A stretch of DNA of 47,006 nucleotides from Candidatus Hydrogenedentota bacterium (lineage in GTDB: Bacteria; Hydrogenedentota; Hydrogenedentia; Hydrogenedentales; SLHB01). The position numbers and the translations under genes were made by a program. This document shows, piece after piece, positions 2,284 through 22,923 of the stretch. The notes below the pieces were generated by a model. It saw nothing but the letters and a program-made list of their open reading frames with translations. It was not told the DNA's origin and did not search any database. Positions within the stretch are counted from its first letter, which is position 1. The number at the start of each line of letters is the position of its first letter. The stretch is taken from positions 1 through 47,006 of the forward strand of contig JAIBAQ010000023.1 in NCBI GenBank assembly GCA_019695095.1. The letters run 5' to 3'.

Positions 2284-5200
2284 ATGATCTATAACTGGAA
2301 ACGATTCTGGTGCCCGCGCGAATCAAAGATCAACCTCGCGGATGACGGCTATCTCTGTGATCCCGACGACGAATTCGGACGTTACCTGAATCCCGACGCG
2401 AAAGACTACGCGTCCATCGCTGACACAGCTTGTCTAGTCATGCTCGGTGAACCGGGTATTGGCAAGTCACGTGTCGTGGATGAGGCAGCTGAAGGCGCAA
2501 GGCGCGCAGGTGTTCCCTTCATCAGTGAGAATCTACGCCAATTTGGGAGTGAGGATCGCCTTGTCGGAAGCGTCTTTCAATCCGACCTCTACACGAAGTG
2601 GTTGAAGGATGATTCCTTGCTCGAACTGTATCTCGACAGTCTCGACGAATGCCTGCTTCGCATCGGCACCGTGGTCCCGATCCTGGTTGATCAACTACGT
2701 ACTGCTCCAGTGGACCGCCTGCGTCTTCGAATTTCCTGTCGCACGGCCGAATGGCCAGCGACCCTGGAAGAAGCCTTAATCAAATATTGGGGTAAGGATC
2801 GCTTCGCCGTGCGTGAACTCGTGCCTCTGCGTCGACAAGATGTGGTGGCCGCAGCCAAAGCAGAAGGACTTGAAACCGACCATTTCATGGAGGAGATTCA
2901 ACGCGTTCGAGCTCAGCCACTTGCCATCAAGCCAGTTACCCTGCGGTTTCTGGTTAAGACCTACCAGCGCGACAAGCGTTTTCCGGATACTGAAGCCGAC
3001 CTTTATCGGCAAGGCTGTCGAATCCTTTGCGAAGAATCCCAAGAACGGCGAGATAGCCGCGTGCCTTTTCAGCACGATCCGGATCAACGTTTTGAAGTCG
3101 CTAAGCGAATCGCGGCCGTCACGATATTCTCAAGCAAATATGCTGTGTGGACGGGCAATGACGAAGGCGATGTCCCCTCAGAAGACCTGACCGCTGACAC
3201 CCTCGCGTTCGGCGTCGAAACAGCCAACGGCCGGGACTTTGCAGTTGACCGGACTGCTATCGACGAGGCGCTCGATACCGGTCTTTTTTCATCCAGGGGA
3301 CTGCATCGTATGGGATGGGCACACCAGACGTATGCGGAATTTCTTGCCGCGGCTTATCTATTCGAAAATGGCATAGCACCAGAACAGGTCCTCGGACTAT
3401 TGACTGATGAGGTGTCGGGTCAGGTCAAAGTCGTACCTCAATTGCACGAGGTGGCGGCGCGTAGCGCTGCTTTCAGTGTACAACTTTTTGACACGCTCAT
3501 TCGGCATGATCCGATTGTGCTGTTACGAAGCGACGTAGCTACTGCCGATACCGCCCAGCGTGAGAAACTTGTGAAAGCGCTTCTTGATCTCTGCGAGCGA
3601 GGAGAACTCCATATTCGTCTCTTTGAATATCACGACAGGCTGCGGCATCTTGATTATCCGGGCTTGGCGAAGCAGCTACGCCCAATTGTTGTTGATCCGG
3701 CAGGAAATATCCATGCTCGCCTGCTGGCGCTTGAGATAGCCAGGGCGTGCGCTGTGTCTGACTTTGTGAGCGAACTACTAGCCATCGCCATTGACCACTC
3801 CGCGAGCATAGAGCTTCGCGTAATCGCTATCGACCTCCTTGGCGAGACAGCGGACGATGCCGTCAAATCCAAGTTGATCGAACTGGCCGAGCAGGCACCC
3901 GAAGATGCGGGCGGAAGAGTGCGTGGCTACGCATTGGAAGTTCTTTGGCCGCGCTATATTTCTGCCGAGAAGCTTTTCAGCCTGGTTGATACGCCGCCAC
4001 CAGAACACGAGATCAACCGATACTCGATGTTCGTTTCCCGTGGAATAGTTAAACATCTACGCCCCGAAGACATCCCATGCGCGTTACGGTGGGTTATTCG
4101 ACAGAAGTGGAGTCGACATGGCTTCCAACATGATTTTTCGAGGCTTCTCGATGGAATTCTTTTTGCGGCATGGGAGCATTTCGACATGCCGGACGTCCCA
4201 CCCCTGCTCGCTCAGGCCATTCATGCCAGGCTCGTTATCGATCATGGACACCTTATGGATTCGACGGATCGCGAAGTTAAGGACTTCCTACATGACGCGA
4301 AGAAGCGCCGACGCTTGCTGAGTGAGTACGTACCGCTTTTGCGAGATCTGGGCCGTGAAGCCTTCTATCTTAACGAGGCGTCCATAGGAATGGCCCGGCC
4401 TGAGGATTTCCCGTGGTTGTTGGAGCAGATGGAGAAAGCTGCAAGTCCGACACTGGCCGCAGCCTGGGAGCGTTTGTGTCAAAGGTGCTACAATGTGTTC
4501 GATACGAGTCATACCGCCCTTGTCTTCGATCGTGCCTCTCAAAGCCCTCGAGTGCGCGAGGCATTCAAGTGGCTGTTCGTGACGATGGACCTTGATTCGC
4601 CTGAGGCGAAGGAAGGCCGGAAGGATTTCGAAGAGGCGCGTAAGTGGCGAAAGGAATCCAGCGAGGACACGCCCCTCATACCGCCCCTTGCTGAACGAAT
4701 ACCACTTTGGTTAAGCCGGTGCGAGGGTGAGGAACCAGGAATCTGGTGGCATTTAGCGAGGGAACTCACGCTCACGCCGGGTAGCCGTCAATACCGCGAT
4801 GAGTGGGATGCCGATATAACAACATTCCCGGGATGGAAGTCGGCGGATGAGCCGACACGGGCAAGGATCGTCGCAGCCGCTAGACGGTACATTCTCCTGA
4901 GCGACGACCGCCGATATCGATGGCTGAAGGAACCCGGAACGCTCAGCATCGAGGCCAACGCGGGTTATCAGGCATTGCGTCTCCTTTTGAATTACGATCC
5001 CAACTTCGTGGCGAATTTGGATGGGCAAGCATGGGACAAATGGATAGCCGGCTTGCTGGATTGTCCGCTGAATCTGGGGAAGGAAGAGGCCGAAAAGCAT
5101 CACGAGCCGCTCATTTCGATGGCCTACGCACGGTCGCCAAATTCTGTCATCGACATGGTGGAGACGCTCGTCTTACGCGAGGCGGCGCATAGCCGATATA

Positions 5201-6492
5201 TCAATCGCATAAACAGAGTCGGGCATATCCTTGACTCGCGCATCAGCGAACGCCTCAGAGCGATGATAAGCGCCCGAGCTCTGGTCCCTGTCTGCGCAGG
5301 CCAAGTAGCTGCATTCTTAATCGAACACAACGATCGGGACTCTATACGTGACGTTTTGGACCTTCTCGATAAACCACTGCCTCAAAGTGGCGAAGACCGC
5401 GATTTTGCTCTAGCGTCTGCCGCAGCGCTCGGCACGGTCATGAATCCAGAACACTGGACCGTGCTTTGGCATGTGATACAACTTGATCAAGAGTTCGGTA
5501 GAGCACTGATCAGCAAGTGGGCGCATTCGCACCGGGACAATAGAGTTCTCGACGGGCTTACTGACAATCAATTGGCCGAGTTTTACATATGGGTGGTTCG
5601 CCAATTTCCATACAATGAAGATCCCCATCCAAAGGGCGCCCATACAGTTGAACCTCGAGAGCAGATTGCCCACTGGCGAGACAATTCCTTGCTTCAGATT
5701 CTGAAGCACCGCGGGAGTTTCTCGTCATGCGAAGCGCTGGCCACCGTACGGGATGCTCTGCCAGAAGCCGCGTGGTTGAACTACACTTTACAGGAAGCAG
5801 TAACTCTGACCCGGGCACGAAATTGGCAGCCATTGAAGCCGGAGCACGTATTGCGGCTCGTAATGGACCGCAACAGCCGGGTTGTCAGCAATGGTATTCA
5901 ATTGCTCGCGGTGATTGTGGAGTCCCTGGGTCGGCTACAGACCGAATTGCATGGCGAGAATCCGTCAATCCGCGACGTCTGGGACTATAACCGTGCTGAG
6001 AAGACATGGCGTCCAATTGATGAAAACGCTTTATCCGACTACGTGGGACGCTTCCTTCGGCGAGACATAGGCGACCGGGGTATCGTCGTAAATCGAGAGG
6101 TTCATATCCGGCCGGGTCACGGGCAGCCCGGGGAAAGGACGGACATTCACGTAGATGCCGTATCGCAGACCCGGAGCGGTGTCTCCGATACCATTACTTG
6201 TATCGTCGAGGTAAAGGGATGCTGGCATCCTGAACTGGTGACAAGCATGAAAGCACAGCTTGTCGATAGGTACTTGCACAAGAACCAATGTCCTTATGGC
6301 TTGTATCTTATCGGCTGGTTCAAATGTGAATCATGGGATCTGAACGACGCGCGGAATGCGGCTACACCCGACTTGCATATCGATCAGGCGCGCAGCCAAT
6401 TCGGCGAACAGGCGGTCGACTTCAGTGCGTCAAACCTTACGGTCATGTCTTTCGTGCTGGACCTAGGGCTGGGTAGGAATTCGGTGGAGTAA
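2284..6492 (+). CDS. NACHT-type STAND NTPase with C-terminal PD-(D/E)xK-like nuclease domain
   Basis: The protein is 1402 residues from the ATG at 2284. The frame stays open upstream to 2179, but the extra residues look non-coding. A NACHT module is N-terminal: Walker A GEPGIGKS (55-62), Walker B YLDSLDE (116-122) and the late NACHT motif HQTYAEFLAA (347-356). A long helical-repeat-like region follows (about 400-1250), the usual ligand sensor in STAND proteins. The C-terminus has ERTDIHVDAV and then CIVEVKGCW, giving candidate active-site residues D1287, E1309 and K1311 of a PD-(D/E)xK nuclease. By analogy with Avs and bNACHT proteins it may sense a phage molecule and degrade nucleic acid; that is inference. 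It is monocistronic, with no clear Shine-Dalgarno. Confidence 0.82.
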   Translation: MIYNWKRFWCPRESKINLADDGYLCDPDDEFGRYLNPDAKDYASIADTACLVMLGEPGIGKSRVVDEAAEGARRAGVPFISENLRQFGSEDRLVGSVFQSDLYTKWLKDDSLLELYLDSLDECLLRIGTVVPILVDQLRTAPVDRLRLRISCRTAEWPATLEEALIKYWGKDRFAVRELVPLRRQDVVAAAKAEGLETDHFMEEIQRVRAQPLAIKPVTLRFLVKTYQRDKRFPDTEADLYRQGCRILCEESQERRDSRVPFQHDPDQRFEVAKRIAAVTIFSSKYAVWTGNDEGDVPSEDLTADTLAFGVETANGRDFAVDRTAIDEALDTGLFSSRGLHRMGWAHQTYAEFLAAAYLFENGIAPEQVLGLLTDEVSGQVKVVPQLHEVAARSAAFSVQLFDTLIRHDPIVLLRSDVATADTAQREKLVKALLDLCERGELHIRLFEYHDRLRHLDYPGLAKQLRPIVVDPAGNIHARLLALEIARACAVSDFVSELLAIAIDHSASIELRVIAIDLLGETADDAVKSKLIELAEQAPEDAGGRVRGYALEVLWPRYISAEKLFSLVDTPPPEHEINRYSMFVSRGIVKHLRPEDIPCALRWVIRQKWSRHGFQHDFSRLLDGILFAAWEHFDMPDVPPLLAQAIHARLVIDHGHLMDSTDREVKDFLHDAKKRRRLLSEYVPLLRDLGREAFYLNEASIGMARPEDFPWLLEQMEKAASPTLAAAWERLCQRCYNVFDTSHTALVFDRASQSPRVREAFKWLFVTMDLDSPEAKEGRKDFEEARKWRKESSEDTPLIPPLAERIPLWLSRCEGEEPGIWWHLARELTLTPGSRQYRDEWDADITTFPGWKSADEPTRARIVAAARRYILLSDDRRYRWLKEPGTLSIEANAGYQALRLLLNYDPNFVANLDGQAWDKWIAGLLDCPLNLGKEEAEKHHEPLISMAYARSPNSVIDMVETLVLREAAHSRYINRINRVGHILDSRISERLRAMISARALVPVCAGQVAAFLIEHNDRDSIRDVLDLLDKPLPQSGEDRDFALASAAALGTVMNPEHWTVLWHVIQLDQEFGRALISKWAHSHRDNRVLDGLTDNQLAEFYIWVVRQFPYNEDPHPKGAHTVEPREQIAHWRDNSLLQILKHRGSFSSCEALATVRDALPEAAWLNYTLQEAVTLTRARNWQPLKPEHVLRLVMDRNSRVVSNGIQLLAVIVESLGRLQTELHGENPSIRDVWDYNRAEKTWRPIDENALSDYVGRFLRRDIGDRGIVVNREVHIRPGHGQPGERTDIHVDAVSQTRSGVSDTITCIVEVKGCWHPELVTSMKAQLVDRYLHKNQCPYGLYLIGWFKCESWDLNDARNAATPDLHIDQARSQFGEQAVDFSASNLTVMSFVLDLGLGRNSVE

Positions 6493-9302: not shown

Positions 9303-10430
9303 ATGGCCTGCGCAAAGCCACCCAAACCAGAACATATGACGCCGCCTAGGGCTTTGGCCAATCCCACTGTCAGCCTCGCACAAAACTGCCTGACAGAGGT
9401 TCTCGCTGCTATTGATCGTTTGAGGCCAGGGCCGGATTTTTCAAGACAACTTGAGCGTGCGAAATCCAGCGTCGAACGAGCACTTCTAGAAGTCGTCGGC
9501 GATGACGTGAAACAGCAGCTCCGCGATCGGCTTCGTCACTTGGAGTCTCAAGCGACGCAAGTGCTGCAGTCTGCCGACCAGTCGCCCACGATCAAACCGG
9601 ATGAACCACCCCCCGCCCCGGCTTCCGTCACACCAGGGGCAACAGCCGCTCGCGCCATCGCACCGGTCATTTGTGAAGCCCTGACGAACCCCAACCATCT
9701 CATGCATCGGTCAGTTTCCGAGAGACTTTTGAAGTACGTCGACACCAACCGGGAGCTGACACAGACGTACAAAGAGCAGTTACCCAAAGACATCGCGGAA
9801 GTCCTGCGAATCGCCCCCACCGCGTTGGGATTATACAAGGAAGCCACTAACCGAGGGCAGCGCCACCCCCTTTCGTCGCAAGGGAAACTGGGCAGAGGAA
9901 CCGGAACAGCTTACGAGATCATGGGGACGGCGGCACTAATTCGCAAATCGGCCCGAGCAACGGGGAAGCCTGATTCGCCGTTGTACATCTCTCCGAGAGA
10001 TTCGCTCGATTTCGGGATCAAATTGCAGGCGAGCTATGCTGACGACGAACGGAAATTATTCCACAGCCGGAAAACGATAGAAGCAGATCTACTCATATCG
10101 AGGCCGCCGCCTCAACCCAACCGGTTGCTCGAACCACACCGAGAGATCGCCGTGGACTTCAAGCATGTGAAACACGGGAAGAGTTACTCTGACAAGGATG
10201 GGGAACAGAAGACCAAGGAAGGAACCTCCTCCCTGGCGAAACAGCTCAAGGGCGTGGCAAGCGCACTAAAAACAGAAGAGATTCATGAGTTTCACTTCGT
10301 TTCCAACGGGCACTTCAGTGAGTCTTTCCGTCGCGCCGTCGACAATGCCAACAGCGAACTGATTGCTTATGGATGCAAGCCGATACTTCTCCATGAACAC
10401 GTCATTGCCGAACAGTGTAAGCCGACCTGA
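9303..10430 (+). CDS. PD-(D/E)xK nuclease-like protein, first gene of the DEAH-helicase operon
   Basis: The protein is 375 residues from ATG 9303; TTG 9288 in the same frame is an alternative. The N-terminal 95 residues are helical and Pro-rich linker sequence follows (about 95-115). The C-terminal half has the spacing of a PD-(D/E)xK fold: GTAYEIMG (Glu about 205), then IEADLLISR (Asp about 262), then IAVDFKHVKHG (Asp about 285, Lys about 287). It would be a DNase or a nuclease-fold binding protein. The next gene starts 15 bases downstream, so it is probably co-transcribed with the two unknown genes and the helicase. The family was not recognised; the nuclease call rests on these motifs alone. 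Confidence 0.55.
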   Translation: MACAKPPKPEHMTPPRALANPTVSLAQNCLTEVLAAIDRLRPGPDFSRQLERAKSSVERALLEVVGDDVKQQLRDRLRHLESQATQVLQSADQSPTIKPDEPPPAPASVTPGATAARAIAPVICEALTNPNHLMHRSVSERLLKYVDTNRELTQTYKEQLPKDIAEVLRIAPTALGLYKEATNRGQRHPLSSQGKLGRGTGTAYEIMGTAALIRKSARATGKPDSPLYISPRDSLDFGIKLQASYADDERKLFHSRKTIEADLLISRPPPQPNRLLEPHREIAVDFKHVKHGKSYSDKDGEQKTKEGTSSLAKQLKGVASALKTEEIHEFHFVSNGHFSESFRRAVDNANSELIAYGCKPILLHEHVIAEQCKPT

Positions 10431-10445
10431 CACATCACTCCGCCC

Positions 10446-11927
10446 ATGAACCTCGACCACAGTTACGAAGAGCACTGCGCATCACGTGATCTTGTGCCGC
10501 CGCCTCAGCTTGCGGAGTTCATGCAATCCGAAATTGCGCCATCGCTTAGCAGCATCCTGTATGGGCCCAATACATCTGCGCCAGGAACGCGTAGCTTGTC
10601 TTCTGCAATGGCCCTGCTGGATGACAGCGCTCACCAGCCGCCTGCCAATCTTCTACCGCTTGCCCAAATTGACGAGCTATCGATCGCGTGCGTGATCTGC
10701 GACTCCGCATCAGATCCGGGAATGCCCGGCGCGGGCCAGGTCATCAGATGGCATCTCGCGGCAATTCCGGCCACTGCACAGGGAGCTCTCATAGATACAG
10801 ACCCCGTATCGTATTTGAGTTCTTTGGGCGAAGAATTGGATGACCGTGAAAAGGCGCTACCAATGCTGCGCGACATCGCTACTCGATATCAGGAGCAATA
10901 CGTTGCTCACGGCAGACTTCCCCGAGGATGGGTCGAACGCCCAGTACAGCTTGCATGCCAAAATGTGATTATCGGGTTATCTGCCTTTGCTCATGATGCG
11001 GCCTTTGACGGCCTGCGAGTTCCTGCATTCTTGACTTGCGAGGTTCCACACCTCGCCACTCATGAAGGGAACCGCGCGTTGTGTGCTTTGATGTTGTGCG
11101 ACGCATATCAAAACGGCGGGACCATGGAGATTCGATTTGGAACGAGACACCGCTCGCGCACCATACCCCCCGCCCTGAAACGCTATGCGAGGACTCACGG
11201 TATTCTCCTTGGGAGTGAAGATCCCTGCGCAATTTTGCCCGCAGAATCCCGCGAGCTATTTCTTGCTTCAACGCCGATGCCGGATGAGCTCTGGGCACGT
11301 GCAGTGGACCTTATGGACCGAGGCCTACTGACACCCGAACGAATCTGCCACACACTGCTCACGCCCATTTGGAGTGCGATCGAACTTGATTATATTCTCG
11401 CAGTCTCATCTCGCGCCGCAAGTATTCTGGCTGGCGGTTCGTCGGCTGAGTTGAGACGCACTCGCCTTGTCGAACAGGAAGTTGCCCGGGCCGCACTGAT
11501 GGCAGGTATGCTGTATCGCCGCGTAAGCATAGCAGATCGGAGTCACAACGCCACAGTTGCCACGGTGCATGAGGATACACGCACCAATGTCAATTGGAGC
11601 ATCGATCAGGACCGTGGGTACATCCTCTTCAGCGGTCTGGATCGTGCCCTTCTGCCCTGGCTTGATCGCGAGCACGCGCAGCCCGTAATCGACCTGGGCA
11701 GTGGGCTAGCTGTCATACCTCGCGCGCTTCCCACTCCTGTCGATTGGACCTTAGCCAGATCGCTTCAGCACGGGGCAGCCGCAATTGCATCAGCCTTGCT
11801 TGTACCCAAAGATGTTGCGGCATCCGTCCCTGCTGATATTGCAGTCTTGATCTGTCCCGACCGGCTTGCGGAAATCGACATCGAAGTGGAGAGACGGATG
11901 CAGCGAGCGAGGACTAGTCGTTCATGA
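10446..11927 (+). CDS. Protein of unknown function in the DEAH-helicase operon (493 residues)
   Basis: This gene was not recognised. It encodes a soluble-looking protein with no signal peptide or membrane segment. It has Ala/Leu-rich stretches compatible with a mixed alpha/beta fold and no Walker, metal-binding cluster or nuclease motif that could be picked out by eye. Its last codon and stop overlap the next start (ATGA at 11924-11927), so translation is probably coupled. The position between a nuclease-like gene and a helicase gene suggests a role in the same complex, which is inference only. Confidence 0.8.
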   Translation: MNLDHSYEEHCASRDLVPPPQLAEFMQSEIAPSLSSILYGPNTSAPGTRSLSSAMALLDDSAHQPPANLLPLAQIDELSIACVICDSASDPGMPGAGQVIRWHLAAIPATAQGALIDTDPVSYLSSLGEELDDREKALPMLRDIATRYQEQYVAHGRLPRGWVERPVQLACQNVIIGLSAFAHDAAFDGLRVPAFLTCEVPHLATHEGNRALCALMLCDAYQNGGTMEIRFGTRHRSRTIPPALKRYARTHGILLGSEDPCAILPAESRELFLASTPMPDELWARAVDLMDRGLLTPERICHTLLTPIWSAIELDYILAVSSRAASILAGGSSAELRRTRLVEQEVARAALMAGMLYRRVSIADRSHNATVATVHEDTRTNVNWSIDQDRGYILFSGLDRALLPWLDREHAQPVIDLGSGLAVIPRALPTPVDWTLARSLQHGAAAIASALLVPKDVAASVPADIAVLICPDRLAEIDIEVERRMQRARTSRS

Positions 11928-12967
11928 GCAGAGAATCGCGAACATTTGTTCGAATCCCCGAGTCCCAAGCGCCACGTGTTCTCGAATTAGCGGATCAGGC
12001 TCTTCAAGCGCTTGCACGATCAGCCAAACAACTGCCGGGCGAGCGCACCGAAGCACTCAGATTTGAGGCGATTCACGCCTCGATTGACCAAATAGCGATA
12101 TCTGCTCTTGGTAATAACGCGCCGTTTGAATTCGCTCCTCGTGATGATGCAAGTGCCCTTATGCCTGGGCCTACAGTCATAGGTCCCGGCTTTACGCATT
12201 CTGCATCAACGACTGAAAAGATTGAGCGTTGGATCCGCGAAGGCGCAGTTGTCGTTGAGTTGCGATTGCCGCATGGCCCGGGCGCAACAATACCCGCAGG
12301 AACTCAAGGTGCTGGACCACCCAAACCAGCGGAGCGATGGACCAGCTCATATCGACGAGACGTCGATGCTATTCAGGAGCGATTTCGGCATCACTTGGCG
12401 GTAGCCACCCACAAGGGCCCCAACGACTCTCACAGTGCCGCGCTGTATCCAAGCGGCATCCCTAATCGCATTTTAACTGAATCGCTCCGTGAGTTTGCAG
12501 ATTCAGTCCCCGGAATATCTCGCGTTGATGTGCCAGTAATCTACAGAGATCAGTCGAGGGGACGCCCATTCCCACTTCGCTCTCTGGTACTGAGCGACTC
12601 TATTCCCGCCCACTGGCGTAAATTGCGCTTTACGCTCATATCCATTCGGCATGTGGAAATGGATGCCATAGTCGATGGCGCTTGGCTGAGAAACGTCAAG
12701 ATCAGCAGGTCCCGGCCGGCAGGATTGACTGATGACATCGTCTATGAGCTGTCTCTGCGCCAGCTGAGCTTTCTGACGGCTCAGCAACCGACAGTGATAG
12801 CGATGTACCAAACGGGTCTTGAGACCGCTGTTGTTGGTTTCTATCGCGCGGTTACTGAGCATCTTATTCATCACCCCAATTCATTATGTGTCGTGCCACA
12901 TTACTACCAGTCGGTTGGTGACTTTGCTCGCGGGCACGCGTGGACAACAACGGGGGCGTCTTCGTGA
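11924..12967 (+). CDS. Protein of unknown function in the DEAH-helicase operon (347 residues)
   Basis: This gene was not recognised. The ATG overlaps the preceding stop by 4 bases, and its own stop overlaps the GTG of the helicase gene (GTGA at 12964-12967). These are tight signs of translational coupling on both sides. The protein begins helical and looks richer in beta strands towards the C-terminus (LRFTLISIRHVEMDAI region). It has scattered His and Tyr residues near the end but no motif that identifies a family. No signal peptide or membrane segment is visible. Confidence 0.8.
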   Translation: MSRESRTFVRIPESQAPRVLELADQALQALARSAKQLPGERTEALRFEAIHASIDQIAISALGNNAPFEFAPRDDASALMPGPTVIGPGFTHSASTTEKIERWIREGAVVVELRLPHGPGATIPAGTQGAGPPKPAERWTSSYRRDVDAIQERFRHHLAVATHKGPNDSHSAALYPSGIPNRILTESLREFADSVPGISRVDVPVIYRDQSRGRPFPLRSLVLSDSIPAHWRKLRFTLISIRHVEMDAIVDGAWLRNVKISRSRPAGLTDDIVYELSLRQLSFLTAQQPTVIAMYQTGLETAVVGFYRAVTEHLIHHPNSLCVVPHYYQSVGDFARGHAWTTTGASS

Positions 12968-15900
12968 CTCGCGGCACTGTTACCACCACGGTATGGCAGG
13001 CTGGGTGCAAGGACTGCGAGGCCGAACGTCTCGCATCGGGGCAAGCGCACGCTTCACCGCCTTTTGAATATTCAGCCGATTGGGCTCAGCGCAATCTCGA
13101 GCGCGGTAACACTCGCTCAGATCGATGCGAAAGGCACCGCCGCGAACACCGACGCAACATACAGTCAATTGCGGTTGCATATGTGGACCTCCAGACTATC
13201 GGTATAGTGCCGGACCGTTCAGACCCAAAAGGCCCGCTCGGTGGATTAGGCCCATTGCCAACCGATCACGTCAAAGCCGCGCATGAATGCGACTTATCAC
13301 CGTTTGCTTTTGGAATGACCGATTCGGACATCCTCTCCCTGCTAGACGGCCTGAAGCAACGCCAAGTCGCCGTAGTTGAAGCTGGAACGGGTACAGGAAA
13401 GTCTACATTCATGCCGTTCAGATTAATGACTCCACCAGAAGGCGCGAATCTATCGCTTACGTCCTTTGGTCCCATTGTTGTCACGGAACCACGGAAGGCA
13501 GCAGCAATAGGCGTCGCCGCATTTGTTGGTGAAAGTCTTTGCTTTGGACATGATAGCCGGACTTGCCTACACCATATAGGCCCTGGTTATCCCGTCGGCT
13601 ACCAAGTCAGTGGAGACAAAAAGTGGGACTCCGCATGCCAGCTCGTATATGTCACCGATGGGACCATGATAAATTGGGTAAGGGACGGATCTCTTGCCTC
13701 TATTGGTACAGTCATTATTGATGAGGCTCACGAACGAAGCGAAAACATCGATATCATTCTCGCTCAGCTACGCGCACAGCTCCATCGGTATCCCCACCTA
13801 CGCGTCATTATAACGTCCGCAACTCTCGATAAGGACTTCTTCATTGAATATTTCGGTGGGCGTGATGTTGTCCATCACCTACATGTCCCGGCTCAGAAGC
13901 TATTTGGCTATGGAGTTCCCTTTTTTCTCGGACTGGACATCTCTGACTCTCTTATCAACGACGGACTTTCCCTCAAGAACGAACACGAGACGAATCCTGA
14001 CGCAGAATCGGAGCGTTTCAGTGGCTGGCCACAATCGAACACGGCATCCAATGGCCATGCGCCGTTTGAGGATCTAAATGCCTTCACACGTAAGCTGTCA
14101 GCACTGCCACGCCCGCAGGAAATGCCTATAGAGCAATGGCGCGAACTCATGCCAACGGCTGTCGCAGAACAAGTCGTTACATTGGCTTTAGGCACCAATC
14201 AGGGCGATATACTCGCCTTCTTGCCCACTACGGACACGATCAACTTTGCGGTGGAAACCATCAAGGCCCGCCTAGAAGCACGCGCAAGAGATTTTGATGT
14301 CTACCCCCTCCTGGCGACAACCCCTGCCGTTATCCGTGACCGGGCACTTGAAGCACGAAAGATCGGCGCTAAGCGAAAAATAGTCGTCTCATCAAATCTT
14401 GCGGAAACATCCCTGACGGTTAAAGGGGTCCGCTTTGTAGTGGACTCGGGGCTCATATGCCAATCGGAATGGGATCCAGAACTCGCGAGGGAATCTTTCC
14501 CGACAAAACCACACAGCCAATCCGGTGTTCGCCAAAGATGGGGCAGAGTTGGCCGCGACGCCCCAGGTTGGGTGTTCCCCCTTTACACGGTTGAACAGTA
14601 CATGTCGCTGCCGAAGGACACGCCCCCCGGTTCAACACAGACGAACCTAGAGACCTTCTCGATGAAACTCCTATCAGCGGGTCTCGATCTTGATCGAGTG
14701 TCCCTGCCGGCGAACTTCTCGCATCCAAATATAGTCCGAGATATCAACGCCCAGCAAAGCTGCGACACATTCACCAAGGAATTGATTCGAGCCAAGTCGG
14801 CTCTCGTGTCGTCGGGGGCCGTGGACAGTGACGGACACCTTACTGATTTTGGCCGCGACTTAGATCGATTCCCCGGATCAGGGTCCAGAGCAATTGCCGT
14901 GATGCTCGCTGATCAGTTGGGATGTATCCATGAAGTGGCATTTGCTCTGGCAATCCTCGCGGATGGGAAGCTGGTTGGCGGCGACAACGGTCTTTTTCGT
15001 TTTGATCGCGCATGGCCGACATCATGGCGCATTCATGCCGCGAGATGTCATCGGGCGCTGGCAATTGGCTGCGTCGATGACCTTGAGCTCGTAATTCGAG
15101 TCGCTTCCGAGTGGCAAACCGCCAGGGATCGGAAGTTGTATTGCGATACTTGGTGGCTCAATTCCCAAGCATTGTCCGACGCGTTTGAGTCAGTCGACCA
15201 GACATTGCTCACGTTGTCGCCAGCCATGAAGAGTCAGGCTACGCGCACGCTGCTGCCATCGCTAGCCAATCGAGCTCGAGCCGTGCTGAATCGTGCAATG
15301 ATTGGGCACAGATACGATCGAGTCGAGGACAAGATCTACAAGCGACAAGAAGATGACATTTCGCAGGCAGTTGCCCTGGATCGCAGCTGCCTCATAGAGA
15401 ATCCTGCCGATTCAATAATCGCTTTGAATCGATTTCGCCTAGATCCAGAAAGGGATGGCTCAGAGCGCCTTCCGGTCATTGGCAACATTGTTCTCGTCGT
15501 GCCTTGGGCTCTCGGTAGCGAAGTCGATGTGCATACACAAGGTCTCGCACTTGCGGTAGCTGTCGCGTCTCGCTCACATCGTGACTCTTCGGATGCACTG
15601 ATTCCGGCGCCCGACACGACACAATATGCCCGCCGTAGGTTTCCCGTGGGTACATTGGCCGATCTGCGCCCCTTGCCAAATAGCGAGCAAGGAGACCAAA
15701 CGCTGTATCTGGAAAACGCATCGCAACCTTTTCTGTTCTCAGATGTCTCTGCGGCAGTGAGTGACCGAGACGCGGGATTGCGCCTCACAACGGAAAGACC
15801 GGGAATGCGATCCGGTTTTGACGCCGATTGGGACCCGTTCAAGCATACAGAGCCAGAAGAACCGCCCGAGGAAACCGAGCAGCGAGTTCTCGACGTGCGC

Positions 15901-17733
15901 GCGATGGAGACAAATGACAATTATGAGCGAAGGGCTACTCGCCGGCCCGTGTTGCGCGAAACCGAGGCCAGAGATCGCTTGCTATCATGTCCAGCTACGA
16001 AGGCAGTCCTGCTACCATTTGACAATCGTGAACTGACGGCCGGGAATCGCGCCGAGGTCATTGGGTACAAGGTGATTGATGGAACCACCGTGGCTCTGGT
16101 CATCGACACCTTTGCACCAGGATTATCAAGACGCGACATAGATACTCATAGTGACCTCAAATTTTGGGATGAACTACAGCTTGAAGTGCGAGGGCTTGTG
16201 CCAGACCACGAACGCGACTGCGTTGAATTCAGGCGAGTCGATCAGCGCGGGAGGTTCTTTTTGATCGGGACAGGTACCGGTATCAACCCGTATGACCGCG
16301 ACTTCGTTCGCAGGCTTATCCCTGGAACAACCATCACCGCCCGGGTTGTACCAGATCTATTTAGCGGCGACCATGTCACAGTGACATTCGTCGAGACGGC
16401 CAGAAAGCATCTCGAATCAGCTACGGCGATACCAAACACGTCATCCAATTCGCCGCTGCCCCAGCCACTTCACGCTGCTATCGTCGAGCCTCCCAATCAG
16501 TGGCAGAAGCTTGTAGTCGAGCTCGAACATCGCGACACGGCAAGCGGAATCTCGCACCGTTTCGATGTCTGGAAGGGACTGATTTCAAGATATAATGCAC
16601 TTTCGTGCGATGTTGGGCAGCGGCTTCAAGTAACGCTAGGAATAGATGACGGCATGAGACAACGACACGCACTTTCCCTTCCCTCGCCCCTACCGGTCGC
16701 GATGATTGACAAATACAAGGCGATAGTTCGAGTCGAGAACGATCAACTGCGTGTCTTGAATGCCCCTCTTCCCGAGGCTCTTGCCGATGACCTTGCCGCT
16801 ATTGATCACAGCGAGGAATGGCAAAGAGCCGTATGGCGTTTCTATTCGGGCAGCTTTCACCTTGCGGTGATCGAGGTGCGTCCAATACCCATTCAAAGCG
16901 CAGTGGACTTTCCACGAGCATTGGTAGGTCTTCTTAAATCACGAGCTTCGCGAATCTCGCGCGATCATGGGGTTTCCTTGGAAATTGGCTCATCACGAGT
17001 CACGATTGTTGGCTTCAGCCAACCGGACATCGAAGGCGCAGAAGCCGACATTGCCGCACTTGCAATGACGCCATACGTCCTTGCTGCACTGCCCCCAGGG
17101 TCAGCAGGCAAAGTAATCGGCAAAAGCGGCGTAACTATAAAGCGACTTCAAGACATGACGGATGTCCTCAGCGTATCTGTGGAGGATGACGAACTAGCAG
17201 TGGCTGGCAGTACCCCGGAAGCAGTGCGTGCGGTTATTGCTGATGTACGAACTATGACCACCGTGGTGGTGGGAAGTATGTCTGTACCCGATGGCAAATC
17301 GGGGCTGCTCATTGGGAGACAAGGAGAGACAATCAAACAGCTGCGCACGGCGACCGGATGCCGGGCAAACAACTCGGACAGGAGTTCAGTCTGGACAATT
17401 GAGGGCCCCTCCGATGCGGCAGTTGAGGCATTCTTTCAGTTAGCCGCACAGAAAGTCTATGGCACAACAGGTCGCATTGTTCAGAGGCGCACGCTGACAT
17501 TGCTGGAGGATGCTACGAAGCCTAAGCCCCCAAAGAGGATCATGCCTTCCTCGGTTTCTACACAGAGATCGTCAGTGAAAGCTGCTGTCCAGAAAGCTGC
17601 TCCACAAGAGGTCGGGACGCGTTCACACCAGGAAACGTCAGCACACGAGGCTCAGTCCGCGAAGGGTGCTTCACCCGATTCGGCGGGCGTGGTATCACGC
17701 CTTCTTCGATACCTCCGCGACATTGTTTCTTAG
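12964..17733 (+). CDS. DEAH-box helicase (HrpA-like) with N-terminal zinc-binding cluster and two C-terminal KH domains
   Basis: The protein is 1589 residues from GTG 12964, which overlaps the previous stop as GTGA. An in-frame GTG at 12940 is less likely. Near the N-terminus C15-x2-C18 and C55-x2-H58 may bind zinc. The helicase core has Walker A AGTGTGKST (140-148), DEAH (253-256), ITSATLD, SSNLAETSLTV and RQRWGRVGRDAPG, closest to HrpA/DHX RNA helicases. The middle holds OB/S1-like beta-rich segments. Two KH domains follow, with GxxG loops in GKVIGKSG (about 1382-1389) and GLLIGRQG (about 1447-1454). KH domains bind single-stranded RNA or DNA, so this is likely an RNA-directed remodeller. 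The C-terminal tail is low in complexity. Last gene of a four-gene operon. Confidence 0.88.
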   Translation: MTRGTVTTTVWQAGCKDCEAERLASGQAHASPPFEYSADWAQRNLERGNTRSDRCERHRREHRRNIQSIAVAYVDLQTIGIVPDRSDPKGPLGGLGPLPTDHVKAAHECDLSPFAFGMTDSDILSLLDGLKQRQVAVVEAGTGTGKSTFMPFRLMTPPEGANLSLTSFGPIVVTEPRKAAAIGVAAFVGESLCFGHDSRTCLHHIGPGYPVGYQVSGDKKWDSACQLVYVTDGTMINWVRDGSLASIGTVIIDEAHERSENIDIILAQLRAQLHRYPHLRVIITSATLDKDFFIEYFGGRDVVHHLHVPAQKLFGYGVPFFLGLDISDSLINDGLSLKNEHETNPDAESERFSGWPQSNTASNGHAPFEDLNAFTRKLSALPRPQEMPIEQWRELMPTAVAEQVVTLALGTNQGDILAFLPTTDTINFAVETIKARLEARARDFDVYPLLATTPAVIRDRALEARKIGAKRKIVVSSNLAETSLTVKGVRFVVDSGLICQSEWDPELARESFPTKPHSQSGVRQRWGRVGRDAPGWVFPLYTVEQYMSLPKDTPPGSTQTNLETFSMKLLSAGLDLDRVSLPANFSHPNIVRDINAQQSCDTFTKELIRAKSALVSSGAVDSDGHLTDFGRDLDRFPGSGSRAIAVMLADQLGCIHEVAFALAILADGKLVGGDNGLFRFDRAWPTSWRIHAARCHRALAIGCVDDLELVIRVASEWQTARDRKLYCDTWWLNSQALSDAFESVDQTLLTLSPAMKSQATRTLLPSLANRARAVLNRAMIGHRYDRVEDKIYKRQEDDISQAVALDRSCLIENPADSIIALNRFRLDPERDGSERLPVIGNIVLVVPWALGSEVDVHTQGLALAVAVASRSHRDSSDALIPAPDTTQYARRRFPVGTLADLRPLPNSEQGDQTLYLENASQPFLFSDVSAAVSDRDAGLRLTTERPGMRSGFDADWDPFKHTEPEEPPEETEQRVLDVRAMETNDNYERRATRRPVLRETEARDRLLSCPATKAVLLPFDNRELTAGNRAEVIGYKVIDGTTVALVIDTFAPGLSRRDIDTHSDLKFWDELQLEVRGLVPDHERDCVEFRRVDQRGRFFLIGTGTGINPYDRDFVRRLIPGTTITARVVPDLFSGDHVTVTFVETARKHLESATAIPNTSSNSPLPQPLHAAIVEPPNQWQKLVVELEHRDTASGISHRFDVWKGLISRYNALSCDVGQRLQVTLGIDDGMRQRHALSLPSPLPVAMIDKYKAIVRVENDQLRVLNAPLPEALADDLAAIDHSEEWQRAVWRFYSGSFHLAVIEVRPIPIQSAVDFPRALVGLLKSRASRISRDHGVSLEIGSSRVTIVGFSQPDIEGAEADIAALAMTPYVLAALPPGSAGKVIGKSGVTIKRLQDMTDVLSVSVEDDELAVAGSTPEAVRAVIADVRTMTTVVVGSMSVPDGKSGLLIGRQGETIKQLRTATGCRANNSDRSSVWTIEGPSDAAVEAFFQLAAQKVYGTTGRIVQRRTLTLLEDATKPKPPKRIMPSSVSTQRSSVKAAVQKAAPQEVGTRSHQETSAHEAQSAKGASPDSAGVVSRLLRYLRDIVS

Positions 17734-17760: not shown

Positions 17761-19857
17761 CTATTCGTAAAAGACGGGTGAACCCCAGTTGCGAATATCG
17801 ACTGGCTTGCACTCGCGTAGGCTGTCCAAAGAGCTGCAAAATGCTTCGAAATATGACGCGCCTGCGCAAAGCCGTGCTACCAAATCGAGCCCATAATCCA
17901 TGGCCACTTCGTCATCCACTGGCCAAAGGTGAGTTATGATCGCCTGGTCGTTACTCGCGAGCATTGGGCCGATGCCGACCTTTGCGGGAGCGTTTGATAT
18001 TAACGCCTTCCCCCCAAAACAGAAGTTAAAGACCACTAATCTACGCTGCGCATTCTTCTTTCTTTTCAAGAGCTCTTTCGCGCAAATCCACTTCGGTGAA
18101 GTGGAACCGACTTGCAGCTCGGATAAATCCGGCCTGTCGAAATTGTAATTGCCATGTCCGGCGATCCACAAAAGATCGATCTCTGGATTTGCGAAAGCGC
18201 CAAGGAACTCGTCGTGCGTGCAATTCGCTTCGCATCGCGACATGGTATCCACACCGTAATTTGTCAATGCTCCCGAAACCAATGGCACTTCATGTTTAGC
18301 CCATCGCGTACCGCATCCCCACACCAGAGCGCGTCTTAACGTACGATCTTGCAGCGGTAGTTCAAAACTAGTAATCAGTGGCCAGCACAGTCCAATCTCC
18401 TTTTGCAGAATTGCCTGCGTAGGTAACGGCAAAAAGGGGAAATGTAGCATTGCGGTACTGGTTTGTATGCTTGCCTTCGCTTTTAGCTGCGCCGTCGCGT
18501 GGAATTCTTGAATTGCATTTTCCCAATCTTTGAGTGGCGCAACGATTGGCAATGTCCCCTCCGGCTTGGCTTTCAAGATTGGGCCGTTAGGGCCTTGGGT
18601 CGTAACATTTAGTCCCAAGCAATCGTTGGTCAGCCCAATTACTCGCGCATGTAGCGAGCCTCGATCGTCCTCAAATAGGCATACATTGCCAGGTGTCGCG
18701 AAAAGAGAGCCCTTTTCATGGGAGGGGATGTGGATTAGGCAACTGTCTTGCCGCACCTGAGTTCGGGGCAGCCCGAACCAGACGGCCAAGAGAGTAAGAA
18801 TTGAATGTACATCCCCGTCGTTCGCCAGCGCGACAATTGCCGGGGTCAGCATGTCACACAATCTGGATTGATTTACGGCTTCTAGTAGTGGGTCATGACC
18901 AGCGAGGTATTCTCCTGCTCTCATTTCATCAATTGCGACTAGTAATTCTTCATATTTCTGGCTTCTTTCTAACCGAGAAGCGATGATCGAAGCGAGTAGC
19001 TGGACACGTTCACGAGGTTCCAATGCCTCTGAGTATTGCGACAGCGTACGTCGCGCCCATTCAATCGTCGGAATACCGGTCCGCGCGCCCATCTTGGTGG
19101 AAAGCGTTACTCCCGCCATCGCCTTGCTTCTGGTCGACCTGATAGGGCTTTCGAAGATTGACCAAATGAGAGTGGCCATTCCTCCGGCGCTTGGATGGTC
19201 AAAGATATCGGCCCAGTTCCCCAAACAGCAAACGGCTTTGGTGCGCTCAATCTCTGCCTCAGCCGGAAGGTTGGACGGATCACGGCAAAGCACTGATAGT
19301 GCAGTAGGCTGAAAGCGTGAGGCCATTTCCTGAAGTGCGGAATATTTGCGCACATAGTAGTACACTGCGCAAATCCAGCTGATCATAACACTATCGGCAT
19401 ATCCGCGAATTGCTGGCCTTGGAGACGCAAAGAACTCTGCGATGTCCTGCGGCCCGAGCTCAAATTGACCGCCTGCTTCGCTTTGGCTGCCTCCAATCCC
19501 AACGGAAGCCACCAACATGTCATGAGCTATTCGGAAATGGCCCCCGCTCAGGAAGTATTGTGCAAATAGCGTACTTACGAAGACGCGAAAAAAGGCTGCG
19601 TCTGCTAAATGCCCCAGGTCTGCCTTGTCCCGTATGTCATCAATGAGTGCTCTCGCGAGGCGTTCAGCTCCGGTCGGAGCCTGCAGCCAAACGGAAGCAC
19701 CAATTTCCTCTTGAAACAACTCCGTTACGCACTCCATGCACGTGTCTGTGCACCAGGAGTCACATATTTGCCAGCGAGGGTCCGTTGGTATCGCAGTATT
19801 CTCATACCACTTGGGAAACAGGTCCCGAATCTGTTTACTAGAACTAGAAGGGGTCAC
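17761..19857 (-). CDS. CHAT-domain (caspase-like) protease
   Basis: This 698-residue protein has a C-terminal CHAT domain. The catalytic His is in LLWIAGHGNYN (His568) and the catalytic Cys in VVFNFCFGG (Cys613). The domain ends with the usual WGSPVFYE (family: aWGSFvl). The N-terminal 450 residues are helical and TPR-like without clear repeats. CHAT proteases (Craspase Csx29, bacterial gasdermin activators, HetF) cut partner proteins when triggered, so this is a plausible effector. The start is a GTG with no Shine-Dalgarno. It lies 56 bases after the HTH gene on the same strand and ends 27 bases from the convergent DEAH helicase gene. Whether it belongs to the ubiquitin-like operon is unknown. 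Confidence 0.85.
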   Translation of the reverse strand: MTPSSSSKQIRDLFPKWYENTAIPTDPRWQICDSWCTDTCMECVTELFQEEIGASVWLQAPTGAERLARALIDDIRDKADLGHLADAAFFRVFVSTLFAQYFLSGGHFRIAHDMLVASVGIGGSQSEAGGQFELGPQDIAEFFASPRPAIRGYADSVMISWICAVYYYVRKYSALQEMASRFQPTALSVLCRDPSNLPAEAEIERTKAVCCLGNWADIFDHPSAGGMATLIWSIFESPIRSTRSKAMAGVTLSTKMGARTGIPTIEWARRTLSQYSEALEPRERVQLLASIIASRLERSQKYEELLVAIDEMRAGEYLAGHDPLLEAVNQSRLCDMLTPAIVALANDGDVHSILTLLAVWFGLPRTQVRQDSCLIHIPSHEKGSLFATPGNVCLFEDDRGSLHARVIGLTNDCLGLNVTTQGPNGPILKAKPEGTLPIVAPLKDWENAIQEFHATAQLKAKASIQTSTAMLHFPFLPLPTQAILQKEIGLCWPLITSFELPLQDRTLRRALVWGCGTRWAKHEVPLVSGALTNYGVDTMSRCEANCTHDEFLGAFANPEIDLLWIAGHGNYNFDRPDLSELQVGSTSPKWICAKELLKRKKNAQRRLVVFNFCFGGKALISNAPAKVGIGPMLASNDQAIITHLWPVDDEVAMDYGLDLVARLCAGASYFEAFCSSLDSLRECKPVDIRNWGSPVFYE

Positions 19858-19913: not shown

Positions 19914-20144
19914 CTATTCGTACTTCACAGCGTTGACCTGAACGGCTAATCGCTCAAGAAGTCGTTCGACATCCACATGTCTGAAGCGAAGTGTTCGATG
20001 ACCAAGCCTGACGTGCGGGAGGAGATTCGACGCAACAAACCGCTCAACCGTGCGTGGCGATACGGCCAGCAATCGAGCAACGTCAGACTTTTTGAGCAGT
20101 GGGCTCACGGCCGACTTCTCCTGGCACATCGCTGCGATCTGCAT
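19914..20144 (-). CDS. Excisionase/MerR-like helix-turn-helix protein
   Basis: The 76-residue protein starts at ATG 20144, preceded by tgaggt about 9-10 bases upstream. The open frame extends to 20501 but would run into the E1 gene in another frame, so the longer form is unlikely. LLKKSDVARLLAVSPRTVER, followed by a wing and an Arg/Phe-rich LRFRHVDVE, is the HTH_17 fold of excisionases and small regulators. In the cell it would bind DNA as a recombination directionality factor or local repressor. It sits between the E1 gene and the CHAT gene and about 8.7 kb from the recombinase, so a regulatory role is as likely as Xis. Confidence 0.68.
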   Translation of the reverse strand: MQIAAMCQEKSAVSPLLKKSDVARLLAVSPRTVERFVASNLLPHVRLGHRTLRFRHVDVERLLERLAVQVNAVKYE

Positions 20145-20349
20145 ATGACCCAACACCTCAAGACGTTTAGAACAAGGATTGCAATTGTCATTGAGAGAAG
20201 GGTTCCTCCCGATAGGGTCACAATAGCTCGGCACAACTTTGGCACCTGAGCGATGGTCGTCAGCAGCCACGCGCCGAAGGAGGCCCACGCGATACACAGC
20301 GCGCATCGTGTCAGCGTCTCTAGCGTAGATTGACTCTTGATCCGACCTC

Positions 20350-21183
20350 TCATTGCCGTCGCCTCGTTCCCAAACCTGCGGCGCCTCCCTTCGATGAGTG
20401 ATTTTGACCTCCACAAAGCGGACAGTCGGGCCTTTTCTCAATGACGAGCTCTGAACTTGGCGCGAAGCCGGCCAAATGGACATTTCGGAAATTCCATGCA
20501 CGCCTTCGATCCATGAGCAGACTGTCTATCGCGTAGAGGGCTAAGCCCGCCACGACATCAAGAATATCGATTACAGCCGGCACGCGACACGGAGCCTTTG
20601 GGCTGTTCAGCGCGTTCGGGAAAACACAACCGAAGCAAGCGCCCCCAGGTTCCTGAACAAAGACGTAGCCATGCTCAGCCGCAAAATCGACTGCGAGAAA
20701 GACAACGGGGATGGCATGGCGCAGACAATATCGAGCAACGGCGACTCGAGTCTCCCCGTTGTCAACGCCACAAACAACAAAATCTGCGACCAGGTCATGG
20801 CCAAGAGCTACTGCATCTTGGAAGCTGAGAGCATGACCTTCGAGAATGGTTCCGCTCGGGGCGTGTGGCGCGAGGTTTTTGACGAGCTGAATCGCCTTGT
20901 TCTTGCCCAAGTCATTTTTAAAGAAGAACTGTCGATTCAGGTTTGAGTGTTCAACAGTGTCATGATCGTAGTAACGTAACCGGCGATAGCCTTTGCGGCA
21001 CAAGCCGTAGCCCACTTGTGAGCCAAGACCGCCGCACCCAAAAATGGTGCCGGTAGACTTGCGGACTACTGCGTGGTCGAAAGACGGCAACATTTCCTGC
21101 CGATCCGTGACGGTAATACCGTCGGGGTTTCGCAGTGTCTTTGTCTCAATCCTGCGGTAGATCGATTTTGTAAACAGCTTCAT
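20350..21183 (-). CDS. E1-like (ThiF/MoeB-family) adenylyltransferase for the ubiquitin-like protein
   Basis: The 277-residue protein has the ThiF/E1 nucleotide loop GCGGLGS (49-55), the acidic DHDTVEHSNLNRQ stretch (73-85) with the Asn-Arg-Gln of the family, and a Lys in LGKNKA (92-97). Zinc-type pairs C183-x2-C186 and C254-x2-C257 follow. Cys199 (APCRVP) sits where ThiF/E1 proteins carry the cysteine that accepts the Ubl. It would adenylate the C-terminal Gly of the Ubl encoded at 22268-22495. At 277 residues it is a single adenylation domain, much shorter than eukaryotic E1. Its start overlaps the JAB gene by 38 bases. It closes the Ubl-E2-JAB-E1 order. Confidence 0.85.
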   Translation of the reverse strand: MKLFTKSIYRRIETKTLRNPDGITVTDRQEMLPSFDHAVVRKSTGTIFGCGGLGSQVGYGLCRKGYRRLRYYDHDTVEHSNLNRQFFFKNDLGKNKAIQLVKNLAPHAPSGTILEGHALSFQDAVALGHDLVADFVVCGVDNGETRVAVARYCLRHAIPVVFLAVDFAAEHGYVFVQEPGGACFGCVFPNALNSPKAPCRVPAVIDILDVVAGLALYAIDSLLMDRRRAWNFRNVHLAGFAPSSELVIEKRPDCPLCGGQNHSSKGGAAGLGTRRRQ

Positions 21184-21847
21184 TGATTTGCTTCACACCT
21201 GCGCCCAAGACACGAACTTCGAACTGCTTGGTGGATGTAAAAAAACGGACGAAGAAATCGCGGGTGACAATAATGCCGATTGCATCAGCGCCCGCTGATT
21301 GAATCGTATTCATGTATTGATCATCAATCGATGACGGGTGCGTCGCGCGTTCTCCCTTACCGGGATGACAATGCGCCATGCAGTGAAGCAAGCATCCGTT
21401 GTCTAGGATCTGAATGAGCGCATCGGAGCATGATTGCGCATCGCCTAACGCATAGATGGGCGATTGCCGTTGAGTATCCAGCGTGCAGATTCGTGATAGC
21501 ACGCGTACCTGGCCGATGCGGGGGCCCGTAACGTAGGCAATTTGTTCATCCGCGCCAGGAGTCAGATGAACGACTAGATCGTGAAGAAACCATGAATCGA
21601 CAACGATTGTCAGAGGCGCCGGTTCATCGAAGCGGCGCGCCATGTCGTGTGTGCACTCGTGAAGCTGATTCCATTCCTCCAGTAGGTCGAAATAGCTCCG
21701 CGCTCGTGATCGCTGCCACAGAGACAACGATTCCGTGATAGCGTCTCTGATCTGCTGTTCCTTTTGTTTCGCCATGCGTTGGGCCGATTCAATGGCGAGC
21801 AGGAACGCGGCTTGGTCAATTTGCTTTTGACATACTGTTGTCACCAT
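21146..21847 (-). CDS. JAB/JAMM (MPN) metallopeptidase, candidate deubiquitinase-like isopeptidase
   Basis: The 233-residue protein has a helical N-terminus (1-75) followed by a JAB domain. The zinc motif is HCHPGKGERATHPSSIDD (159-176), which fits H-x-H-P...P-S-x2-D, with Glu101 a candidate catalytic acid. The spacing between HxHP and PS is a few residues longer than in Rpn11/AMSH, as in some prokaryotic JABs. It would trim the Ubl C-terminus to expose Gly or remove Ubl from targets. ATG 21847 has ggagtg about 8 bases upstream. The gene overlaps the E2-like gene by 32 bases and the E1 gene by 38 bases. Confidence 0.82.
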   Translation of the reverse strand: MVTTVCQKQIDQAAFLLAIESAQRMAKQKEQQIRDAITESLSLWQRSRARSYFDLLEEWNQLHECTHDMARRFDEPAPLTIVVDSWFLHDLVVHLTPGADEQIAYVTGPRIGQVRVLSRICTLDTQRQSPIYALGDAQSCSDALIQILDNGCLLHCMAHCHPGKGERATHPSSIDDQYMNTIQSAGADAIGIIVTRDFFVRFFTSTKQFEVRVLGAGVKQINEAVYKIDLPQD

Positions 21848-22271
21848 GGCTGTGGCACTCCATCAAAATGGTTTCTATGGCAAGGATCTCAGCGGATAGG
21901 TCCGACATTTTGGTGTGATGAATCGAATACCAGCCGTGCTTTTGCTTGCTGAAGCACGACCAGTGATGATGGAACCTCAGTAATTCAGGCGGATCACGAA
22001 TGTACAGGTCGAGTCGCCCAGACGGACTCTGCTCGGCCTTTCCTTCCCAGCTTCCATGCTGAGTGCGGAAGTACCCATAGAAGGCCGGCCCATTCCTACT
22101 CCATGAGCGCTGCTGCCAATAGGGTCGCTGGTCACGTTGCACAACTGTCGTGGCGCCATTCAATTTGAAGAACTTGGGGTCTAATAAGACATGAACACGC
22201 TGTGGTGCTTGAACTGGTGGCATGGCCACCAGCTCAAGTAGGAATTCCGCCAGTTTGCCAAGAATGCTCAT
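21816..22271 (-). CDS. E2-like ubiquitin-conjugating candidate
   Basis: The 151-residue protein is about the size of an E2 (UBC) fold. It contains FHHHWSCFSKQKHGWYSIHH (about 100-119). Cys106 is a candidate catalytic cysteine with a conserved-looking His-x2-Trp just before it, a pattern reported for prokaryotic E2-like families. The only other Cys is Cys139. The E2 assignment is mainly from position: it sits directly after the Ubl gene, with ATGA overlap at 22268-22271, and before the JAB and E1 genes, the order of Bil operons (Ubl, E2, JAB, E1). It could be another accessory protein of Ubl systems. Confidence 0.6.
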   Translation of the reverse strand: MSILGKLAEFLLELVAMPPVQAPQRVHVLLDPKFFKLNGATTVVQRDQRPYWQQRSWSRNGPAFYGYFRTQHGSWEGKAEQSPSGRLDLYIRDPPELLRFHHHWSCFSKQKHGWYSIHHTKMSDLSAEILAIETILMECHSHGDNSMSKAN

Positions 22272-22509: not shown

Positions 22510-22923
22510 TCAGGCGCTGATTTGGCCTGATTGCTCATGCATCACCGATTGGGTGAAGATGTCCGAAGCTGACGCGTCATTCAGGACGTCGGTAGTTATG
22601 ACGAGAATTCGGTTAAGGAACGTGGCCCACACCCGGCGGCACAGCAGCTCCTCAATCCTCCTCTTAAGAGTCGCCGACGTCGTCACAATGATGACTCGAT
22701 TGCACCCGAGGGCGAAATCGCGCTCAAGGTTATTGCATACGTGTCGGACGCTGCGTTCGACCTCGATGCATGCAATGTCACGCTTGCGCGGATTGCATAC
22801 GACAAGATCGGAATTCCCCTCTTCGCACTGGACGATGTATCCAGCTTTGCGACACAAGTGCAGGAGTCGCAGTTTCAACATAACGTGTTCATCTGACTCG
22901 CGGCCTCTACGAACGCTTTTCAT
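22510..22923 (-). CDS. Small PD-(D/E)xK-like protein between ATPase and Ubl genes
   Basis: The 137-residue protein begins with basic helices (SDEHVMLKLRLLHLCRKAGY), then GNSDLVV (Asp39) and ACIEVERS (Glu54, Glu56), then helix-strand segments including RVIIVTTSATLKRRIEEL. D...E-x-E on adjacent strands resembles a PD-(D/E)xK core with Glu in place of the usual Lys, so it may be inactive or merely share the fold. It overlaps the ATPase stop by 17 bases and ends 14 bases before the Ubl gene, so it belongs to the same transcript. Small proteins of this type accompany VirD4/HerA-like ATPases in mobile elements; the function here is unknown. Confidence 0.6.
   Translation of the reverse strand: MKSVRRGRESDEHVMLKLRLLHLCRKAGYIVQCEEGNSDLVVCNPRKRDIACIEVERSVRHVCNNLERDFALGCNRVIIVTTSATLKRRIEELLCRRVWATFLNRILVITTDVLNDASASDIFTQSVMHEQSGQISA

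Follow-up and report, generated by a model that had tools for sequence, protein, structure and literature searches.

What role could be served by a large DEAH helicase whose gene is coupled to two genes of no recognised family? The question is raised by a contig of Candidatus Hydrogenedentota bacterium (JAIBAQ010000023.1 of assembly GCA_019695095.1, all 47,006 nucleotides of which are hereafter called the window). An earlier note on this DNA had singled out an undescribed four-gene operon, with the genes called A, B, C and D here, as a possible anti-phage system. The core consists of B, C and D, which are found side by side in three bacterial phyla; A is the least conserved member. Our tentatively favoured reading, which in our judgement falls just short of an even call, is that the four genes make up an accessory system not described before, which moves horizontally and most likely acts against phages; in it, an effector that is tagged and exchangeable would be controlled by a helicase complex that senses RNA.

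A recurring core and a variable first gene

Four open frames lie in the order A-B-C-D, tightly packed and in one direction (Table 1). The stop of A is separated from the start of B by 15 bases, and each of the next two junctions is a 4-base overlap; both overlaps were read where the earlier note had placed them. The ATG start chosen for A yields a protein beginning with MAC, and this choice is supported because the first genes at 7 related loci open alike, with MAC, VAC or MGC.

The same B-C-D order was found at 11 further loci, which lie on Actinomycetota chromosomes and plasmids and in two Chloroflexota, giving 12 loci with the window. Specifically, tblastn searches of plasmids uncovered a conjugative plasmid of Paenarthrobacter ureafaciens (locus L002; 42% for B and 42% for C, followed by a D homologue) and a linear Streptomyces plasmid (L003; 27% for B and 34% for C, again followed by a D homologue), so that two copies are plasmid-borne and one of these plasmids is conjugative. 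Scanning about 85,000 prokaryote genomes with an alignment of C produced eight more loci, from Intrasporangiaceae, an Actinomycetes metagenome-assembled genome, Nostocoides, Sinomonas, Streptomyces, two Nocardia and the Chloroflexota Viridilinea; the same scan with C as a single sequence gave no match. One further locus (L024) came from a search of the Chloroflexota class to which Viridilinea belongs. The presence of B, C and D together and in order at 11 other loci places the arrangement beyond chance.

The order is kept at every locus, with D incomplete at the locus end in L005, and the B/C overlap is preserved in 11 of the 12; A overlaps B by 4 bases in 3 loci. Pairwise distances for B, C and D correlate at 0.95–0.98 (Mantel r; 0 of 5,000 permutations were as high), and their trees are congruent in most supported groups, L003 being a long branch whose placement is unsure. 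Thus, B, C and D have been inherited as one unit. The coupled operon that the earlier note had proposed is therefore real and recurrent, with no model or paper found for it, although its conserved neighbourhood is a three-gene core plus a variable first gene rather than a four-gene unit.

The cassette is rare wherever it was counted. In tallies that take in the genomes that seeded the searches, it occurs in 1 of 68 genomes of the window's phylum, at least 1 of 396 sampled Actinomycetota (a lower bound, with three candidates scored per genome), 1 of 118 Nocardia, 2 of 188 genomes of the family of Nostocoides and 2 of 158 of the Chloroflexota class. B and C were absent from the viral contigs searched, and C was absent from the phages searched. 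A spread as sporadic as this is what a rare accessory cassette would show.

Gene A of the window carries residues E205, D262 and D285-x-K287 (10155–10163) in the order typical of PD-(D/E)xK enzymes, as judged by eye and by pattern, and finds no family match in Pfam, NCBIfam, PADLOC or PHROGs. The motif suggests that it is probably a PD-(D/E)xK nuclease. BLAST gave no relatives of window A, either at the other loci or in plasmids, and a MAFFT alignment with the Streptomyces first gene revealed no convincing homology beyond the start; the first gene of L008 likewise has no homologue in plasmids. This latter gene and that of L003 bear a GE...LD...EVK nuclease motif, with a weak NOV_C match in L008 (E 0.014), so that PD-(D/E)xK-like first genes occur at three loci including the window. 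At five Actinomycetota loci, the first gene instead encodes a protein of 136–153 residues with an HVHV...TDR stretch that is not nuclease-like. Thus, the earlier description of the first gene as nuclease-like stands as a motif in window A and does not extend to most relatives. This comparison covers the first genes of the window and of L002–L008; of the two Nocardia loci, L009 begins at a contig end.

What these first genes do share is their beginning. The tag MACGNN(H/M)(V/I)SR opens the first gene in six Actinomycetota loci (L002 and L004–L008, with L004 called as VACGNN), and it is joined to unrelated bodies. The tagged gene overlaps or closely precedes B in five of these loci and is divergent in L008. 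When searched with a degenerate DNA pattern for the tag, 3 tag-bearing genomes each gave a single match, which lay at the operon every time. The sequence case for a common start across the six is strong. The first gene of L003 starts MGCQNHG and window A starts MACAKPP; window A has a Cys at position 3, as do the first genes at 7 other loci, and the link of L003 and the window to the tag, with three residues shared, is suggestive. In Paenarthrobacter, the MACGNN first gene (L002 11465–11926) is absent from the plasmid annotation, which has an antisense call at 11609–11830 instead.

Table 1. Positions of the operon genes and of their junctions and motifs in the window.
Feature	Position	Strand	Remark
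Gene A	9303-10430	+	Variable first gene, 375 residues, starts MACA, C-terminal PD-(D/E)xK-like motif; candidate effector nuclease
Gene B	10446-11927	+	Core gene, 493 residues, family unassigned
Gene C	11924-12967	+	Core gene, 347 residues, family unassigned
Gene D	12964-17733	+	DEAH/RHA helicase, 1589 residues
B/C stop/start overlap ATGA	11924-11927	+	
C/D stop/start overlap GTGA	12964-12967	+	
Zinc cluster of D (CKDC ... DRCERHRREHRR)	13006-13155	+	CxxC at D15-18, C/H at D53-64
KH GxxG loops of D (GKSG, GRQG)	17119-17130 and 17314-17325	+	

The helicase and its two partners

D comprises an N-terminal zinc ribbon, a RecA1/RecA2 core (13381–14556), an HA2-like region, a long linker and two C-terminal KH domains. 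Helicase motifs I, II, III, V and VI are intact (AGTGTGKST, DEAH, TSAT, TSLT and QRWGRVGR), and the KH domains match Pfam KH_1 in two stretches (7.4e-18). The Cys/His cluster, which includes a CxxC pair, aligns with the four-Cys ribbons of the Streptomyces plasmid and Chloroflexota relatives. The architecture read from the DNA earlier, a zinc cluster and two KH domains joined to a DEAH motor, is thus upheld. By sequence, the solved relatives of D are the DEAH RNA helicases Prp22, Prp43, DHX8 and HrpA (E to 7e-44).

Had D been a housekeeping HrpA found alone in most genomes, the proposal of a new system would have lost its ground. D scores 180.1 bits against the HrpA model TIGR01967, for which the curated cut-off is 722.75 bits, and none of 60 genomes (its own and 59 relatives) has a protein above that cut-off; in its own genome, the model matches D alone, in two pieces and below cut-off. 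D is also preceded by B and C at every locus. For these reasons, we rejected the assignment of D as a housekeeping HrpA. It resembles HrpA and the other DEAH/RHA helicases in its DEAH motor, its HA2-like region and its RNA-binding accessory domains, and differs from them in its N-terminal zinc ribbon, its KH/S1/Jag_N tail and its fixed B-C partners, and in being accessory.

The tail of D is swapped between members. It carries two KH domains in the window and in L011, four S1 domains and Jag_N in L002 and in Sinomonas (L007), five S1 and Jag_N in L004, one S1 in both Nocardia (L009 and L010), and three KH and two S1 in L024; no recognised domain was found in the tail of L008. In other proteins, KH and S1 domains bind single-stranded nucleic acid, mostly RNA. 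Chiefly because the tails carry these domains, we infer that RNA is the ligand of D. Of the earlier suggestion that the helicase recognizes RNA or ssDNA, the RNA part is accordingly strengthened at the level of sequence, as KH is present in some members and S1 and Jag_N in others.

B and C, which the earlier note could not recognise, are without a match in Pfam, NCBIfam, PADLOC and PHROGs, described defence families included, and Pfam is also empty for nine members of each. Sequence-profile matches to Protein Data Bank (PDB) entries (titin and others) were short and were set aside as spurious. The AlphaFold2 model of B has a predicted local distance difference test score (pLDDT) of 73.5, with an alpha/beta C-terminal part; its most conserved stretch, about residues 158–235, is poorly modelled. 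No significant match to the model was found in PDB or viral structure libraries, and B matches no nucleotidyltransferase. The N-terminal ~155 residues of the B model weakly resemble SUKH (SMI1/KNR4) proteins (2icg and Knr4, E-value 0.43), but none of nine B proteins matches Pfam SUKH, and the Chloroflexota members lack this part.

The C family has conserved blocks SIRHxEMD, GAWLRN and YQTGLETAVVGFYRA. Its AlphaFold2 model (pLDDT 77, built on a shallow alignment of nine) has as its top Foldseek matches in PDB the Cap5 SAVED domain (E 4e-4, probability 1.0), a SAVED-CHAT filament, Csm6, Cap4 and Cap14; the matches under E 0.001 number five and are all Cap5. By profile comparison, C matched neither of two SAVED sets (Cap4-type and Actinomycetota): hhalign gave a probability of 0.3% for C versus the Actinomycetota set, whereas the positive control between the SAVED sets reached E 2e-21. 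Pfam SAVED (PF18145) was also unmatched in nine members of C. We therefore rejected C as a SAVED protein and refer to it as SAVED/CARF-like by predicted fold; judged from the model, C probably has a sensor fold of this kind. The structural check proposed earlier for both proteins has thus given a resemblance for C and none of significance for B.

Genomic setting

The earlier placement of the operon in a defence island is confirmed by its neighbours. BovA of the Borvo system adjoins D in convergent orientation (17761–19857, minus strand; 335.6 bits), and upstream of A lies an EruA-like NACHT protein (2179–6492, plus strand) whose score of 270 bits is far under the cut-off of 1,000, and which is therefore a distant Avs/NLR-like member. 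A protein of 939 residues at 25822–28641 (plus strand) is a NACHT/STAND-type ATPase with no PADLOC match. Elsewhere, IetAS lies directly upstream of the operon in Nostocoides jenkinsii (L006 2641–6206), a C5 methylase is near it in L008 and a PD-T7-3-like gene is near it in L003. Genes that look transposase-like by eye stand beside L005 and L006. In Nocardia, D is directly followed by a GrpE-like and then an HSP70-like gene (L009 7918–10460 and L010 15198–17875), the GrpE-like gene of L009 overlapping D by 4 bases; these are possibly extra members of the system in that genus.

Other neighbours were recorded in passing. On the minus strand of the window, 19914–22271 holds a row consisting of a helix-turn-helix protein, a ThiF-like E1, a JAB-like protein and an unrecognised gene of 151 residues, which looks like a ubiquitin-type conjugation cluster, and 22907–25695 holds a HerA/mad8-like ATPase (47.8 bits) whose unrecognised partner overlaps it by 4 bases. 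PP-loop/NAD-synthase-like ATPases that are 65% identical occur near the operon in two different hosts (L002 21046–22254 and L010 3190–4395).

Proposed mechanism, alternatives and meaning

Judging from the defence neighbours, the mobility and the sporadic spread, anti-phage defence is the likely role of the operon. In the mechanism that we propose, D would serve as sensor and motor, its zinc ribbon and exchangeable KH/S1/Jag_N tail holding single-stranded RNA, B and C would act with it as an obligate adaptor or switch, and A would be an interchangeable effector that is brought in by the Cys-containing tag at its N terminus. The D-B-C complex would keep A inactive while D surveys RNA, such as foreign or aberrant transcripts or stalled translation. 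On engaging a target, D would run its ATPase, the B-C switch would change state and A would be released or activated; the active protein would then cut nucleic acid, stopping the infection or the cell. A bolder version, which we regard as doubtful, is that such operons form a new immune class, wherein a DEAH helicase that surveys RNA with interchangeable readers (KH, S1 and Jag_N) acts via two new families (one a divergent SAVED/CARF-like switch) to control any effector bearing a short N-terminal Cys tag of the MACGNN type, with sensor heads and effectors swapped between lineages.

Several observations weigh against the proposed mechanism. No A-like gene was seen beside the two Chloroflexota copies, and with five Actinomycetota first genes that are not nuclease-like, a nuclease is not universal to the system. 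The likeness of C to SAVED is local, because the template modelling (TM) score is about 0.3 and the root-mean-square deviation about 11 Å, and the comparison of C with both SAVED profile sets was negative. A simple pattern that finds its control detected no CD-NTase/cyclase motif at the 12 loci. Finally, the GrpE-like/HSP70-like pair behind D in Nocardia could point to protein or RNA quality control.

The strongest competitor is direct restriction of the Hachiman kind, in which aberrant DNA or DNA:RNA hybrids would be detected by D and DNA would be degraded immediately by A; B and C would have a structural role, and neither RNA nor a second messenger would act as a signal. Hachiman provides the precedent of a sensor helicase that holds, and then releases, an effector nuclease (PMC12278908), it likewise combines the two in one operon in defence islands, and the nuclease motif that the first gene carries in the window, L003 and L008 would fit such a role for the candidate nuclease here. 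We nevertheless think this unlikely: tails made of KH, S1 or Jag_N domains suggest RNA, D has RNA helicases as its nearest solved relatives and five loci have an A that is not nuclease-like. Furthermore, PADLOC yields no HamA or HamB match for A–D, Pfam DUF1837 is unmatched in A, and the present operon differs from Hachiman in its RNA-type DEAH helicase, two extra conserved proteins and exchangeable effector.

Less probable again is that the operon is not for defence and instead plays an accessory part in translation or RNA quality control, with a helicase of the HrpA type freeing stalled ribosomes or remodelling RNA during stress. Campbell et al. (2025, as cited in PMC13159725) reportedly found that collided ribosomes are rescued by HrpA in Escherichia coli; such an activity makes translation stress a candidate trigger for the system that we favour and is also the basis of this non-defence alternative, to which the RNA-binding tails of D and the GrpE-like/HSP70 genes of Nocardia lend further weight. 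The very patchy distribution, the plasmid carriage, the defence neighbours at several loci and a tagged variable first gene with nuclease motifs all argue the other way.

We give somewhat less credence still to second-messenger signalling, with C as a cyclic-oligonucleotide receptor that switches A when D-B or another member of the island produces a signal. The predicted fold of C and the separate candidate nuclease effector recall the CBASS and type III CRISPR effectors with SAVED or CARF sensors. Set against this are the failure of the C-SAVED profile comparison despite a strong positive control, the absence of a cyclase motif at all 12 loci and the lack of a nucleotidyltransferase match for B. 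It is very improbable that B-C-D works for a mobile element, in plasmid maintenance or addiction, A being the toxin and B/C the antitoxin or regulator: two copies are on plasmids, transposase-like genes lie beside two loci and the first gene is small and variable, but a helicase of 1,500–2,000 residues is unusual for such a module and 10 of the 12 copies were not found on known plasmids.

The undescribed system that we favour also differs from the other helicase systems named in the earlier note, as that note had judged. Mokosh couples an RNA-type helicase to a nuclease, a likeness to the pairing of D with the candidate nuclease A; the helicase family and the gene set are different here, and A–D have no PADLOC match to MkoA, MkoB or MkoC. 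Nor do they match the DISARM models in PADLOC (DrmA, DrmB, DrmC and methylase). The operon is undescribed in the open-access literature searched and in Pfam, NCBIfam, PADLOC (2023) and PHROGs. The general kind, a helicase with an effector in a defence island, is already known; what is new is a DEAH helicase whose RNA readers can be exchanged, a putative effector with a tag, and the two families B and C.

If A-B-C-D is a defence system, it would add two unannotated protein families and an HrpA-type DEAH RNA helicase recruited into conflict. It would also be an example of compact modularity, wherein the motor, B with C, and the opening residues of the effector are constant and the RNA-reading tail and the effector body vary. 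Such a system would raise the question of whether a helicase lets bacteria sense invading RNA, as is known best from immunity in animals.

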